From assembly GCF_003664595.1 (NCBI RefSeq), contig NZ_QXPZ01000023.1, positions 1 to 64,000 on the forward strand: a stretch of DNA of 64,000 nt. Reading direction: 5' to 3'. The translations under genes and the position numbers were made by a program. Under the pieces are notes generated by a model. It saw nothing but the letters and a program-made list of their open reading frames with translations. It was not told where the DNA came from and made no database searches. Source of the DNA: Atopobacter sp. AH10. Lineage in GTDB: Bacteria; Bacillota; Bacilli; Lactobacillales; Aerococcaceae. Below, piece by piece: positions 29,519 through 56,712 of this stretch (position 1 is its first letter; the number at the start of each line of letters is the position of its first letter).

Positions 29519-30319
29519 TCACCTCAGTATATATCTGACCCCCGCATTATACATCGCTTTAATTACACTTACAAGATACTTATCCATATCTTTATCTAGC
29601 GAAACATCTCTTGATAAATCCCGAGCAGAGTTTTTATCAAATCTATCTGTTTTAGTTAAATACATGACCTTTCCTTGATTAGTAACAATAGTTAAAGTTT
29701 TGACAGAATCATGAGACATAAAAGTTTGAACGTCGTTTGCCGAAAAACTAGACCCACCTGGATGATTATGCAATATCGTCAAGCTTCTATCTGGTGAACT
29801 ATTGATCAGATACCTTGCTTGAACTGATTTGTTGATATCCACCGACACCTGGTCTCCATACACCACAACAGGCTTTCCTTCCGTCGTTATATGCATGACT
29901 TCGTTAGATTGGTTGTTTTGTTGAGCATCTCTTAATAAAACTTTATGAGCTTCCTGTATCCGTTTGTTCTCCTCTTGGGAATAGCCTGGAATTTCAACAA
30001 AAGGCACCTTTTCTATAGCTTGGTCTGTAATATAAATCTTTTTGCCACGCTTTTTAGCCATCGCTAAATTAAGCGCCTCATTCTTCCTCTCCTCTATCTT
30101 ACCATCTTTATCCACATCACTCCATACTTTCGACCATGCATCCTGCTTTTTCCCATTTCCTGGATAGTAGGTCAATGTACAGTGACAATTGGCGTGACGT
30201 CTGAAGATGTCTTTATCGATGGTGTCCTTGTCATAATCGTAAGTTCCGACCCGCTCTCTACAGAATTCACACTGACTATGGGATCTCTTCTTTCCCGTCC
30301 GTGCGCCTAGTTTACGCAC
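29519..30319 (-). CDS. 5'-truncated phage MuF protein with JAB/RadC-like C-terminal domain
   Basis: The 266-residue frame starts with GTG at 30319 but stays open to a TAG at 30392-30394. The open part reads as the middle of a MuF (SPP1 gp7-like) protein: APKIVRKLGARTG, then a C-x2-C...H-x2-C-x-C set (residues 17-47) and YYPGNGKKQDAWSKVW. Residues about 140-235 resemble a JAB/RadC-like metallo-domain, with HNHPGGSSFSAND at 184-196. MuF proteins with swapped C-terminal domains are known polymorphic toxins of temperate phages. The usual 200-odd N-terminal residues are missing, so this is an orphan toxin end. Confidence 0.7.
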   Translation of the reverse strand: MRKLGARTGKKRSHSQCEFCRERVGTYDYDKDTIDKDIFRRHANCHCTLTYYPGNGKKQDAWSKVWSDVDKDGKIEERKNEALNLAMAKKRGKKIYITDQAIEKVPFVEIPGYSQEENKRIQEAHKVLLRDAQQNNQSNEVMHITTEGKPVVVYGDQVSVDINKSVQARYLINSSPDRSLTILHNHPGGSSFSANDVQTFMSHDSVKTLTIVTNQGKVMYLTKTDRFDKNSARDLSRDVSLDKDMDKYLVSVIKAMYNAGVRYILR

Positions 30320-30394: not shown

Positions 30395-30543
30395 TAACGA
30401 TCTTTAAACAACACCTAGAGCCACTTGCCGGATTCAATAAGCGCACTGTATCAACTCTTAATCGCCATGCGTGCAAAATGTGTGCAAAATGAGTGCGCCA
30501 AGTTACGGAACTAAAAACATCTAAAACAATTTAACTAAAAGGG
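30395..30543. other. Recombination-border stretch right of the truncated MuF gene
   Basis: The MuF frame breaks off at 30394. The sequence to the right is unrelated, with a direct repeat of GTGCAAAATG (30471-30492) and a short plus-strand frame ending CKMCAK. It may hold an attachment or old recombination site. No gene is supported. Confidence 0.35.
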
Positions 30544-30572
30544 TTGGCTTTATGCAACACTCGCTGTATAAT
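30544..30572 (+). promoter_or_regulatory. Promoter of cassette 1 with imperfect dyad in the spacer
   Basis: TTGGCT (30544-30549), 17 bases, TATAAT (30567-30572). The 14 bases beginning 10 bases after the -35 start (30554-30567) form an imperfect dyad, CAxC....GxTG. A GCAAC/GTTGC pair (30554/30583) also flanks the -10. Cassettes 2 and 3 have perfect dyads at the same place. Confidence 0.7.
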
Positions 30573-30621
30573 ATAATCAGAGGTTGCGAGATACCTCAAT
30601 AAAAATAGGAGGTGAACATAT

Positions 30622-30741
30622 GTGAGTAGGAAACAAAGAAAGAAGCTTGAAGACGAAATCAAGCTAACTAAATTATTAAAAGCAGTCGCAATGCTTGAAA
30701 TAATCAAAACGTTAGTTGAAATAATCGACAAGCTCCTATAA
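30622..30741 (+). CDS. Cassette 1 amphipathic peptide (39 residues)
   Basis: GTG start with AGGAGGTGAACATAT in front (the ATG four bases upstream is followed at once by TGA). The peptide has a basic N-terminus (MSRKQRKKLEDE) and a Leu/Ile-rich amphipathic C-terminal helix (LKAVAMLEIIKTLVEIIDKLL region). It is the first gene after a consensus promoter and ends just before a terminator. No known family is recognised; toxin-like or signalling peptide are possible roles. Confidence 0.65.
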   Translation: MSRKQRKKLEDEIKLTKLLKAVAMLEIIKTLVEIIDKLL

Positions 30742-30746
30742 AACTT

Positions 30747-30780
30747 AGGGCTGGGCAACCAGCTCAGCCCTTTTCTTACT
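30747..30780 (+). terminator. Internal terminator of cassette 1
   Basis: GGGCTGGGC/AGCTCAGCCC forms about nine pairs around AACC, then TTTTCTT. It separates the amphipathic peptide gene from the next two genes. Confidence 0.85.
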
Positions 30781-30791
30781 TGCATTATATC

Positions 30792-30881
30792 ATGAAAAAA
30801 GAAAAAGTAACACTCAAAGAACTATTAGTAGTATTAATTGTTTTACAAGCAATCGATATCTTATTAACCATTTTCAGATAG
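30792..30881 (+). CDS. Cassette 1 hydrophobic peptide (29 residues)
   Basis: ATG 30792 opens a 29-residue frame: a charged start (MKKEKVTLKE) and one membrane-length hydrophobic helix (LLVVLIVLQAIDILLTIF). It resembles small holin-like or type I toxin peptides in build only. The ribosome site is poor, so expression is less certain; equivalents exist at the same place in cassettes 2 and 3. Confidence 0.5.
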   Translation: MKKEKVTLKELLVVLIVLQAIDILLTIFR

Positions 30882-31175: not shown

Positions 31176-31206
31176 TTGACTTTATAACGGTTAGCCGTTG
31201 TAATAT
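31176..31206 (+). promoter_or_regulatory. Promoter of cassette 2 with perfect dyad
   Basis: TTGACT (31176-31181), then TGTAAT at 17-base spacing or TG-TAATAT at 19. The 14-base dyad AACGG-TTAG-CCGTT lies at 31186-31199, beginning 10 bases after the -35 start. This is a likely operator blocking RNA polymerase. Confidence 0.75.
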
Positions 31207-31235
31207 AGATAGAAGGTCAAGAAAGGAAGCGTGAT

Positions 31236-31361
31236 ATGATAACTAGAACAATGCAAAGACAACGAAAGAAACAAAAAACAAAAGAAACTATCGAACTCAC
31301 CGCCAAGTTAGTTTCAATAGTTTCTGGAATTGCCAGCTTAGTTAAGTTACTACTTAAATAA
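31236..31361 (+). CDS. Cassette 2 amphipathic peptide (41 residues)
   Basis: ATG 31236 has AAAGGAAG before it. The peptide has a very basic N-terminal half (RTMQRQRKKQKTKE) and an amphipathic helix (TAKLVSIVSGIASLVKLLLK). It equals the cassette 1 and 3 first peptides in position and build but shares little sequence with them. Function is unknown. Confidence 0.65.
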   Translation: MITRTMQRQRKKQKTKETIELTAKLVSIVSGIASLVKLLLK

Positions 31362-31368
31362 ATTAGCC

Positions 31369-31397
31369 AAAAGGGAAGTTGACCTTCCTTCCCTTTC
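31369..31397 (+). terminator. Internal terminator of cassette 2
   Basis: AAAGGGAAG/CTTCCCTTT hairpin, then CATTATA. It follows the first peptide as in the other cassettes. Confidence 0.7.
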
Positions 31398-31426
31398 ATT
31401 ATAAAAGAAAGAGGTAAATATTACAA

Positions 31427-31519
31427 ATGAAACTAACCAATGAGCGAAAACGAAATGTCAGAATCGTCTTTTGGGTGAGTTTAGCCATAGTGAACATTAT
31501 TTATTTAATTTGGGGGTAA
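31427..31519 (+). CDS. Cassette 2 hydrophobic peptide (30 residues)
   Basis: ATG 31427 with AAAGAGGT upstream opens a basic start (MKLTNERKRNVR) followed by one membrane helix (IVFWVSLAIVNIIYLIWG). The frame ends 5 bases before the HTH gene, suggesting co-translation. Confidence 0.6.
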   Translation: MKLTNERKRNVRIVFWVSLAIVNIIYLIWG

Positions 31520-31524
31520 ACATA

Positions 31525-31719
31525 ATGAGAAAATCTGTAGAAGCTTTATTAAAGAGTGACCTATCTGCTTATAAAATATCTAAAGAAGCCAACGTCCCTT
31601 ATATGACCGTCAACGACTTGCGCAATGGAAAGTCTTCTATTGATAATGCAAAGTTTGGGACAATTGAAAAGCTATACAACTATGCAAAATCAATAAATAA
31701 AAAAAGCCCCTCCAGTTAA
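31525..31719 (+). CDS. Cassette 2 short HTH protein
   Basis: The start is ATG 31525, with GGGGG in front; the longer frame to 31471 lacks a ribosome site. The 64 residues contain SAYKISKEANVPYMTVNDLR, NGKSSIDN and a C-terminal EKLYNYAKS helix. It is a paralogue of the cassette 1 and 3 HTH proteins and the probable regulator of the AACGG dyad. Confidence 0.8.
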   Translation: MRKSVEALLKSDLSAYKISKEANVPYMTVNDLRNGKSSIDNAKFGTIEKLYNYAKSINKKSPSS

Positions 31720-31737
31720 GGAGAGGTTTCCTTACAC

Positions 31738-31770
31738 AAAAAGGGGGTAACCGTTATGGCTACCCCTTGC
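31738..31770 (+). terminator. End terminator of cassette 2
   Basis: GGGGTAACC/GGCTACCCC hairpin. ATAACGGTTA in its reverse complement also occurs in the cassette 2 operator and the cassette 3 end hairpin. Confidence 0.7.
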
Positions 31771-31812
31771 ATGATGTGATTTTAAATTCAGAAAAAAAGT
31801 TCCCAATCTCCC

Positions 31813-31841
31813 TTGACATTACACACTATAAAGTGTATACT
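31813..31841 (+). promoter_or_regulatory. Promoter of cassette 3 with perfect dyad
   Basis: TTGACA (31813-31818), 17 bases, TATACT (31836-31841), nearly ideal sigma-A boxes. The spacer holds ACACT-ATAA-AGTGT (31823-31836), a 14-base dyad at exactly the offset seen in cassette 2. Confidence 0.85.
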
Positions 31842-31865: not shown

Positions 31866-32006
31866 GTGGAAAAAGCTGACTGGCTTAGGATAGCTGAAAA
31901 AGTTATCGAAACAGTCCCAGAGCTGATTACAGCGATTGTAGCGTATCTTACCTACAAGGAGCTAAAGAAAAAGAGCGATTCTAAAGACTCCGACCAAGAG
32001 AAATAG
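31866..32006 (+). CDS. Cassette 3 amphipathic peptide (46 residues)
   Basis: GTG 31866 is preceded by AAGGAGGTGATAAA. The peptide has an acidic-amphipathic first part (MEKADWLRIAEKVIETVPEL), a hydrophobic middle (ITAIVAYLTY) and a charged Lys/Asp/Ser tail. Strong promoter and ribosome site argue for real translation. No family is recognised. Confidence 0.7.
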   Translation: MEKADWLRIAEKVIETVPELITAIVAYLTYKELKKKSDSKDSDQEK

Positions 32007-32015
32007 AACCGCACT

Positions 32016-32050
32016 AGGGTTGAGGGGCGTTATCCCCTCTTACCCTTATT
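32016..32050 (+). terminator. Internal terminator of cassette 3
   Basis: AGGGTTGAGGGG pairs with CCCCTCTTACCCT around CGTTAT, then TATTGTAT. It is a strong stem directly after the first peptide gene. Confidence 0.85.
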
Positions 32051-32075
32051 GTATCTTTAATAAGGAGGAATAGCA

Positions 32076-32141
32076 ATGGTTTATCTAATAGCTTTCACTT
32101 TGTTAGCACTATTGTGGGTTAAAGTAAAGAAGGATGATTAA
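32076..32141 (+). CDS. Cassette 3 hydrophobic peptide (21 residues)
   Basis: ATG 32076 with AAGGAGGAATAGCA in front gives a 21-residue peptide: a hydrophobic helix (VYLIAFTLLALLWV) and a basic/acidic end (KVKKDD). It ends one base before the HTH start. The excellent ribosome site supports translation. Confidence 0.65.
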   Translation: MVYLIAFTLLALLWVKVKKDD

Positions 32142-32142
32142 A

Positions 32143-32574
32143 ATGTTCCAAGATGTATATGCTGTTATAGAAAACCTATTGAAAAGCGAAATCACAAGTT
32201 ATCGTATCCAAAAAGACACTGGCGTTAGACAACAGATGATCGATCGATATAGAAAAGGCCAAAGTGATTTAAAAAATATGACCTTAGATGTTGCTGAAAA
32301 ATTATACAATTACGCATCAAGCATAAAAAAAGCCCCTCCAATTGAAGGGGGATTCCCTTACACAAAAAAGGGGGTAGCCATAACGGTTACCCCCCCTTTT
32401 AATTTTAGTCTAAATTGTCCGTATTGTTGGCTTCGTTGTGTTCGGCTGGATATTCTCTTTCAAGCTCTTTCAATTGCAAGCGTTGATTTTCCGCTTCCAA
32501 TTTTTCGATCATTTGATAAGATTCGAAAAGCCTTTGATCTGCCTTCTCTTGCGCTTTCTTTGCGTCTATCATGA
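32143..32574 (+). CDS. Cassette 3 HTH protein with run-on C-terminus
   Basis: The first 62 residues match the other two HTH proteins: TSYRIQKDTGVRQQMIDRYR, KGQSDLKNM, AEKLYNYASS. In this cassette the frame crosses the end hairpins in another phase and has no stop there, so it continues to 143 residues over antisense of the next gene. The tail from residue 63 on looks like non-coding sequence read through. A one-base shift would end it at a TGA in the first hairpin. Confidence 0.65.
   Translation: MFQDVYAVIENLLKSEITSYRIQKDTGVRQQMIDRYRKGQSDLKNMTLDVAEKLYNYASSIKKAPPIEGGFPYTKKGVAITVTPPFNFSLNCPYCWLRCVRLDILFQALSIASVDFPLPIFRSFDKIRKAFDLPSLALSLRLS
32364..32402. terminator. End terminator of cassette 3, between convergent genes
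   Basis: GGGGGTAGCCATAACGGTTACCCCCC followed by TTTTAATTTT, with an A-run on the left. It can stop both the cassette and the leftward lysis operon. Confidence 0.8.
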
Positions 32575-33494: not shown

Positions 33495-33884
33495 CTATTT
33501 GATCCCTAATTCCTCTTTTAAAGCGGTTTGTAAAATACTTGAGAAATTGACTGATTGTTTCTCAGCAATATCATTAAGCCACTTTGGAATGGTTAATGTC
33601 TTTTTGATGGATTGATTGTTTGCTCTGTCCATTATCGGTTTTAACCAAATATCTACATAAATAACTTTTTTGCTTTCATCAGACGTTATTTCTAGAGAAG
33701 CTTTTGGAAATTTTCGCCCATTTTTAGCTAAACTAAATAAAGTTGCTTCAAGAACATCTTTAGCGTTAATTACTGCTTCTTCAAATGTATCTCCATCAGT
33801 GAAGCAAGATTCAAAATCTGGGAAATCAACATAATATACCCCATCATCTTCTGAAATTAGGCATGGATATATAATTTTTTCCAT
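33495..33884 (-). CDS. hicB: HicB-family antitoxin
   Basis: The 129-residue protein has the HicB partial RNase H-like fold (YPCLISEDDGVYYVDFPDF, FEEAVINAKDVLEATLF) and a C-terminal DNA-binding region (IPKWLNDIAEKQSVNFSSIL). It follows hicA by 28 bases. The pair lies inside the lysis region between endolysin and holin, an unusual place. Confidence 0.9.
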   Translation of the reverse strand: MEKIIYPCLISEDDGVYYVDFPDFESCFTDGDTFEEAVINAKDVLEATLFSLAKNGRKFPKASLEITSDESKKVIYVDIWLKPIMDRANNQSIKKTLTIPKWLNDIAEKQSVNFSSILQTALKEELGIK

Positions 33885-33911
33885 TGTATCCTCCTTATTC
33901 AGATAATAGGG

Positions 33912-34103
33912 CTAAAACTTCAGCCCTGTTATTCTCTCGATTTTTGTCAAGGTACCTGAAGGAATATCTTTCTTAGTACACTTTACAGGACACATCAATC
34001 CATTTTTTAAATAAATTTCGTGTGAACCGTTAGTGTGATCTAAAATCCACCCTTCTTTCTTCATACGCTTAACAACATCTCTGTAAGGCTTGGTTTTTGA
34101 CAT
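33912..34103 (-). CDS. hicA: HicA-family mRNA interferase toxin
   Basis: The 63 residues show the HicA pattern: YRDVVKRMKKEGWILDHTNG, SHEIYLKNG with the catalytic His, and IPSGTLTKIERITGLKF. AGGAGG precedes the ATG. The pair has its own promoter (34125-34153). Confidence 0.9.
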   Translation of the reverse strand: MSKTKPYRDVVKRMKKEGWILDHTNGSHEIYLKNGLMCPVKCTKKDIPSGTLTKIERITGLKF

Positions 34104-35312: not shown

Positions 35313-35588
35313 CTAACCTTTAAATAATTCATCGTGTGAACCTAGTCGAATTAATGTACATATACTATCTTCAGTTACATAAATCAAAAGCCAATCGTTA
35401 TCAACGTGTAATTCGTAGTGACCGATCCAATTCCCTTTTAATTGATGTAATCTGTATCTGTTTATCAAAACTTCAAACTCATCATTTTGAATATGTTTAA
35501 ATACCATCGATAATTTATTCATATCAAAATGCTTCTTTTTATATTTTTGATAATCGCGCTTAAAACGATTTGAAAAATTAATCTTCAT
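35313..35588 (-). CDS. YafQ/RelE-type mRNA interferase toxin
   Basis: From ATG 35588 the 91-residue product reads MKINFSNRFKRDYQKYKKKH with HQLKGNWIGHYELHVDNDWL and YVTEDSICTLIRLGSHDELF. This matches the YafQ branch of RelE, including the C-terminal GSHxELF block with its His and Phe. The start overlaps the antitoxin stop. Confidence 0.9.
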   Translation of the reverse strand: MKINFSNRFKRDYQKYKKKHFDMNKLSMVFKHIQNDEFEVLINRYRLHQLKGNWIGHYELHVDNDWLLIYVTEDSICTLIRLGSHDELFKG

Positions 35589-35856
35589 TCTCAAGCGCCT
35601 CAAACAATGCCTCTACCGAATCATATGGTCCATATACCTCACCACGCTCAGCTTCTTTCATTGCTGCTAAAGTTTCATCATTAGGCTCTCTATAAACACT
35701 AGGTATAAATGGTAAGCGATAGTCTGTAACAGTCTGTTTTAAAAAGATCGTAATAGCTGTGGTCATGTCCATTCCCATTTTACTGAATATTTCTGCCGCT
35801 TCATCTTTCAGTTCTTGATCAACACGAATATTAATATTTGCTTGTTTTGTCGCCAT
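35578..35856 (-). CDS. RelB/DinJ-family antitoxin
   Basis: The 92 residues begin with a ribbon-helix-helix (ANINIRVDQELKDEAAEIFS, MGMDMTTAITIFLKQTV) and end in an acidic toxin-binding tail. With the YafQ gene this forms a complete DinJ-YafQ pair inserted between fibre and lysis genes. Confidence 0.92.
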   Translation of the reverse strand: MATKQANINIRVDQELKDEAAEIFSKMGMDMTTAITIFLKQTVTDYRLPFIPSVYREPNDETLAAMKEAERGEVYGPYDSVEALFEALENED

Positions 35857-56289: not shown

Positions 56290-56712
56290 TTAATGGCTTT
56301 CTACCTGAAGCTGTTTTCGAAGTGCTTCCTGCAAGGTTTGACTGAAATTAATTTTCTTCTCCTTTGCCATCACTTCCATCCATTTCGGAAGGGTCACCAT
56401 CTTATTAACCGAAGTGTTTTCTTCATACAAGCGAGCATAGTAGGTATCAACCGGTATATACTGCAAGAAGTCCTCGTCACTTTCCAAGAGTCCCTTTAAC
56501 TCAGATAGGCTTCGAGGGGTATTAATTTTTTTATCCATATCTTCTAAAGTTAACAACATCTCTTCTAAAGCGCCTTTTACTTGCTCAATAGCTCCATCGA
56601 TGCCGTTCCCTTCTGTTACTACCCCAGGGACATCAGGAACCGTCACTGTATAAATATTTGATTCAGGCTCCTCACTTTTTTTAAACAAGGCAACAAAATT
56701 ATACTTAGCCAT
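56290..56712 (-). CDS. HicB-family antitoxin, second copy
   Basis: The 140-residue protein has ESNIYTVTVPDVPGVVTEG and GAIEQVKGALEEMLLTLEDM with a C-terminal DNA-binding region (LPKWMEVMAKEKKINFSQTL). It is clearly a paralogue of 33495 in its C-terminal part (both have LPKW/IPKW and INFSQ/VNFSS). Its toxin partner is broken (see 56768). Confidence 0.88.
   Translation of the reverse strand: MAKYNFVALFKKSEEPESNIYTVTVPDVPGVVTEGNGIDGAIEQVKGALEEMLLTLEDMDKKINTPRSLSELKGLLESDEDFLQYIPVDTYYARLYEENTSVNKMVTLPKWMEVMAKEKKINFSQTLQEALRKQLQVESH

Follow-up and report, generated by a model that had tools for sequence, protein, structure and literature searches.

Three small cassettes follow one another on the plus strand of the window (the whole 64,000-nucleotide stretch of Atopobacter sp. 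AH10 which we have analysed). Each of them has an inverted repeat in its promoter, which is very probably the operator of a helix-turn-helix (HTH) autorepressor encoded by the last gene of the same cassette. The cassettes themselves are probably prophage units which resemble type I toxin-antitoxin systems and carry in addition this Aca-like autorepressor, as judged from their sequence and layout. The new observation concerns the gap after the first peptide gene, which in 44 cassettes contains a hairpin together with an antisense promoter that is specific to one strand. The three cassettes have a common order: promoter with dyad, peptide 1 (39–46 aa), GC hairpin, small transmembrane (TM) peptide (21–30 aa), HTH gene and terminator. 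Their features are the following:

30544–30572, plus: cassette 1 promoter, -35 TTGGCT (30544–30549), -10 TATAAT (30567–30572)
30554–30567, plus: cassette 1 imperfect dyad GCAAC-ACTC-GCTGT, at +10, 3 of 5 pairs
30622–30741, plus: cassette 1 peptide 1, 39 aa, GTG start, Shine-Dalgarno aggaggtg
30747–30771, plus: cassette 1 hairpin or terminator-like element 3' of peptide 1; the antisense RNA is predicted to begin with this hairpin as well
30784–30813, minus: cassette 1 predicted antisense promoter, extended -10 TGATATAAT, weak -35, start about 30777
30792–30881, plus: cassette 1 small TM peptide, 29 aa
30892–31083, plus: cassette 1 predicted HTH repressor, 63 aa, helix VPVQTIDRYR (phrog_1529, 4e-12)
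31176–31204, plus: cassette 2 promoter, -35 TTGACT (31176–31181), -10 TGTAAT (31199–31204)
31186–31199, plus: cassette 2 perfect dyad AACGG-TTAG-CCGTT
31236–31361, plus: cassette 2 peptide 1, 41 aa
31372–31390, plus: cassette 2 hairpin 3' of peptide 1
31398–31426, minus: cassette 2 predicted antisense promoter TTGTAA-N17-TATAAT, start about 31391
31427–31519, plus: cassette 2 small TM peptide, 30 aa
31525–31719, plus: cassette 2 predicted HTH repressor, 64 aa, helix VPYMTVNDLR (phrog_1529, 2e-21)
31813–31841, plus: cassette 3 promoter, -35 TTGACA (31813–31818), -10 TATACT (31836–31841)
31823–31836, plus: cassette 3 perfect dyad ACACT-ATAA-AGTGT
31866–32006, plus: cassette 3 peptide 1, 46 aa (PHROG 3399, unknown function)
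32021–32042, plus: cassette 3 hairpin 3' of peptide 1
32048–32076, minus: cassette 3 predicted antisense promoter TTGCTA-N17-TACAAT, start about 32041
32076–32141, plus: cassette 3 small TM peptide, 21 aa
32143–32574, plus: cassette 3 predicted HTH repressor, helix VRQQMIDRYR (phrog_1529, 1e-21)

The frame of the third HTH gene has 143 aa, of which the first 63 or so form the HTH domain. It lacks a stop at the position where its paralogues end and reads through its own terminator.

A sequence-only reading of this region had noted that the dyads of cassettes 2 and 3 start exactly 10 bases after the first base of the -35 box, and that cassette 1 has an imperfect dyad at the same offset. All three are indeed found at these positions. 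In cassettes 2 and 3 the promoter spacer is 17 bp and the 5-4-5 dyad reaches one base into the -10 box. Perfect dyads of this kind are not rare singly, there are 90 of them in the window; their presence at the same offset in both promoters has a probability of about 3e-5 by spacer shuffling, or 1.8e-4 when any gap of 0–8 is allowed. The dyad of cassette 2 is conserved in Facklamia hominis (L336) and in L005/L006. The recognition helix of cassette 1 recurs identically in the F. hominis cassette, whose promoter reads TTGACT-ttat-ACAAC-ttcc-GTTG-a; the imperfect site of cassette 1 fits this CAAC type.

We gathered HTH proteins of homologous cassettes from phages and viral contigs as well as from genomes of the order and class, and grouped them into 46 clusters with less than 80% identity. 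Their promoters were picked blind to dyads. The viral search was done with single proteins, since whole cassettes have no conserved stretches to align, and no DNA similarity over a whole cassette was found in phages. The best spacer dyad has on average 4.85 of 6 pairs in the 46 clusters as compared with 3.73 in shuffled spacers, where the highest of 500 means was 4.07. Perfect dyads are present in 13 of the 46 clusters, while 0.8% are expected. It is this comparison which decides in favour of the dyads being real. The dyad centre lies mostly 14.5 from the start of the -35 box in the relatives, in some cases 13.5 or 15.5; the three cassettes of the window and several others form a subgroup with the centre at 16.5. 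The common geometry that had been proposed is thus valid for this subgroup but not as a rule for the family, and we have rejected a universal offset of +10, as the centres differ among relatives.

A further result is the relationship between helix and operator, a comparison across homologues which the same reading had suggested. Similarity of half-sites follows the identity of the recognition helix after correction for the remainder of the protein (partial Mantel r=0.45, p=2e-4, the lowest value that 5000 permutations allow). This remainder, given the helix, shows no such relation (r=0.04, p=0.15), nor does the flanking DNA used as a control in the helix comparison (r=0.06); the test takes clusters as exchangeable and does not treat phylogeny explicitly, its safeguard being these two partial controls. 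In pairs of proteins less than 50% identical outside the helix, the operators become more alike with increasing helix identity (similarity from 0.24 up to 0.73), while similarity of the flanking DNA stays at 0.42–0.44. Leaving out one cluster at a time, the half-site resembles that of the nearest helix (0.60) much more than that of all others (0.29). Covariation has its peak between helix positions 6–9 and bases 4–6 from the dyad centre, which points to recognition of the operator through helix alpha3. Several correspondences are apparent: PYQTVQDL goes with CACG-N6-CGTG, PWTTVSDL and PYMTVNDL (cassette 2) with CGG-N4-CCG, ID[RK]Y with CAAC or ACACT. Since half-sites follow the helix, but neither the remaining protein sequence nor the DNA beside the site, the proposal that each HTH protein would bind its own promoter is strongly supported, together with the homology described below. 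The abundance of perfect dyads in the window could suggest that those in the promoters are due to chance, or that they are operators of another regulator such as a prophage CI. We consider this very improbable: their position is maintained throughout the family and they covary with the HTH of their own cassette, not with the flanking DNA.

Mutual insulation of the three units had also been proposed. Half-site similarity is 0.20 between cassette 2 and either of the other two, below the family mean of 0.29, which favours insulation for this cassette; it is doubtful for cassettes 1 and 3, which have a similarity of 0.50 and share IDRYR in their helices. As helix alpha3 appears to hold the specificity and has diversified, cassette 2 should be private, whereas cassettes 1 and 3, with related sites, may cross-talk. 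A selection for insulation was considered and rejected, as cassettes present in one genome do not avoid similar helices: cases of similar helices number 7 in Staphylococcus (5.3 expected) and 6 in other genomes (0.9 expected).

The HTH proteins belong to a family with known members. All three match PHROG 1529, of unknown function, and a profile of 16 members detects AcrIIA15 (1e-19) and Aca11 (8e-14) among PDB sequences. An AlphaFold2 model of the cassette 2 protein (pLDDT 91), in which alpha3 corresponds to residues 26–34, superimposes on the N-terminal domain (NTD) of AcrIIA15 with a TM-score of 0.89 and an rmsd of 0.7 Å. AcrIIA15 forms a dimer which binds two inverted repeats at its own promoter; one of the two lies in the spacer from -35 to -10. 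The protein contacts bases through S25, Q26 and K31, and it represses a reporter through the repeat in the spacer (PMC10901769). By alignment the equivalent residues are P25/Y26/D31 in cassette 2, R29/Q30/R35 in cassette 3 and P27/V28/R33 in cassette 1. The cassettes share with the AcrIIA15 NTD and Aca11 (PDB 8jfr, 8jfo, 9lx2; PMC10901769, PMC8934645) a homologous HTH domain and fold, the same alpha3 numbering and an inverted repeat between the -35 and -10 boxes of their own promoter, imperfect in cassette 1. In a close homologue of AcrIIA15 (L337) the sequence ATGAC-gaat-GTCAT lies between the hexamers and is repeated further upstream. AcrIIA15 differs by a fused Cas9-inhibiting domain, which is absent from the HTH proteins of the window, and the cargo is also unlike that of AcrIIA15 and Aca11: small peptides with a hairpin and an antisense promoter. 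The operons of Aca1-10 (PMC9410906) are similar in having a core-promoter inverted repeat, repression by the cognate HTH and frequent solo aca-like genes, but their cargo is often a known acr and their HTHs come from other Pfam groups. From homology and covariation we infer that the product of the last gene would bind as a small dimer to the dyad between -35 and -10 and block RNA polymerase.

The gap between peptide 1 and the TM gene contains a promoter-like sequence of sigma-A type on the minus strand. In 44 cassettes its mean score is 8.83 as compared with 5.42 in shuffled sequences (mean z 1.98, SE 0.19), while five control regions remain at background (z from -0.08 to 0.11): the gap itself on the plus strand and, on the minus strand, peptide 1, the region before the HTH gene and the 5' and 3' parts of this gene. 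The gap also has a GC hairpin with z above 2 in about 91% of the 44 cassettes. The predicted antisense start is found mostly 20–40 nt beyond the stop of peptide 1, at the edge of the hairpin, so that the predicted RNA begins with the hairpin and enters the peptide 1 gene. In cassette 1 the antisense -35 box is weak, which, like the imperfect dyad of this cassette, counts against the overall interpretation. No consistent terminator site for the 3' end of this RNA was found among the cassettes, and an Rfam search gave nothing above the gathering threshold. On the strength of this promoter signal we consider it likely that an antisense RNA is indeed transcribed from the gap. Two minus-strand open reading frames in this area, 30531–30785 and 31217–31399, were rejected as genes. 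They appear to be due to chance, since their ATG sits inside the -10 box (TATAATG) or directly behind it, and thus ahead of the predicted transcription start, and since no counterpart exists in cassette 3.

The predicted antisense arrangement matches that of yonT/SR6/yoyJ in SPbeta, and suggests a type I toxin-antitoxin-like interpretation. There a single antisense RNA extends over the toxin gene's 3' end and also over the beginning of another small open reading frame (PMC5848175). Both are found in a prophage, with a small toxin or putative toxin gene, an antisense promoter in the gap and one polycistronic mRNA. No HTH repressor of its own has been reported for the SPbeta unit and no rho-independent terminator was found downstream of yonT (PMC5848175); the likeness is one of layout, not of peptide homology with yonT or yoyJ. 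The sprG1/SprF1 unit of S. aureus prophages (PMC10579593) is also similar, with single-helix membrane peptides and an RNA antitoxin over the 3' end, but a linked HTH autorepressor was not found in the reports. In the literature searched, mostly papers accessible without subscription, we have found no type I toxin that is linked to an HTH repressor of its own.

In the window each cassette has a small hydrophobic or amphipathic reading frame; in cassette 1 peptide 1 is basic at the beginning and then amphipathic/hydrophobic. At the promoter level there is also a putative antisense RNA gene which overlaps the predicted toxin mRNA. The transcript repressed at the dyad would carry the amphipathic peptide 1, the 3' hairpin, the TM peptide and the repressor. 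The antisense RNA would have the same hairpin as its 5' end and would pair with the peptide 1 mRNA over its 3' part, acting as antitoxin, while the Aca-like protein would be a second, transcriptional brake. It is slightly more likely than not that peptide 1 is toxic when unopposed. In Pfam and NCBIfam, representative peptides match no named family of type I toxins, and only weak or unknown-function matches were obtained in Pfam, NCBIfam, PADLOC and PHROGs; peptide 1 of cassette 1 has none in Pfam, PHROG or NCBIfam. Peptide 1 splits into several unlike families. Type I toxins often lack homology to one another, and for this reason we say that the cassettes would work like type I systems and do not assign them to a named family.

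Other functions of the peptides have to be considered. The membership of the HTH in the family of AcrIIA15 and Aca11 raises the question whether the cassettes are acr-aca operons, in which the HTH would be a true Aca and peptide 1, the TM peptide or both would be anti-CRISPRs, expressed in a burst and then repressed. The host genome has cas1, and in some relatives the HTH is fused to an acidic C-terminal domain within an otherwise normal cassette (L345). However the peptides have only 21–51 aa, are amphipathic or transmembrane and have no Acr, PADLOC or Pfam match; the near homologue of AcrIIA15 in L337 has the dyads but no peptide 1 or TM gene was seen at this locus; and the conserved antisense promoter and hairpin would have no explanation. 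As regards type II-A, no Cas9 was found in the host, although the phage may meet it in other hosts. We find this interpretation quite improbable. The fused cassette, L345, comes from a Staphylococcus genome; it is complete in peptide, hairpin and TM gene, its acidic domain has about 110 aa, and it is a candidate bridge to anti-CRISPRs of the AcrIIA13-15 type.

Superinfection exclusion or lysogenic conversion has a low probability too, a little higher than that of acr-aca operons. The membrane peptides would alter the envelope against a second phage, with the HTH limiting their level and the antisense RNA as a fine adjustment. There are two membrane peptides in each cassette, peptide 1 is highly diversified, and cassettes sit beside the lysis genes, close to attP or to one end of the phage (PH10, phi11, phiMR11, SpSL1). 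No homology to known exclusion proteins was found, and an antisense promoter with a shared hairpin is typical of the control of type I toxins.

The window is part of a Lactobacillales chromosome with a prophage, and F. hominis belongs to the same GTDB family. The late genes of the prophage are on the minus strand, the cassettes on the plus strand beside an amidase (PF05382) and a holin (PF05105). The same layout is found in Streptococcus phage PH10, gp54-gp53-gp52. In the model Staphylococcus phage phi11 a whole cassette is present at the right end of NC_004615.1 (L012), unannotated in the record. PHROG 1529 has matches in 162 of 396 genomes of the order, a figure in which weak matches are counted too and which does not give the number of cassettes. 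There is nearly an even chance that the type I toxin-antitoxin-like units form a widespread and largely unannotated class in phages, with a double lock of antisense RNA and Aca-like repressor, the operator specificity of the latter having diversified along a readable helix-to-base code which would let several units coexist in one prophage.

These results join three literatures: Aca-type autorepressors, AcrIIA13-15 and type I toxins of prophages. Anti-CRISPR searches by guilt-by-association which use this HTH as bait would catch peptide cassettes, possibly toxins. Tens of natural helix/operator pairs on roughly one common scaffold make a recognition code of small HTHs directly testable. The antisense RNA is predicted in well-studied lysogens, where existing RNA-seq could decide.

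Other genes of the window deserve mention. A HicB-like antitoxin (PF15919) and a HicA toxin (PF07927) are found at 33495–34103 (minus), flanked by lysin and holin genes, another HicB-like gene at 56290–56712, and a YafQ toxin (PF15738) with a RelB antitoxin (PF04221) at 35313–35856 (minus), near the holin gene. The end of the prophage is rich in toxin-antitoxin genes (hicAB, yafQ/relB), a circumstantial argument for the toxin-antitoxin-like interpretation. At its edge, in 29519–30319 (minus), there is a gene for a protein of 265 aa without a Pfam match; it has a motif of the HNHPGGS type, and its N-terminal part is rich in Cys and His. Finally, the terminators of cassettes 2 and 3 (31738–31766 and 32371–32399) are 93% complementary over 29 nt and carry a CCGTT/AACGG half-site which resembles operator 2, probably by chance.
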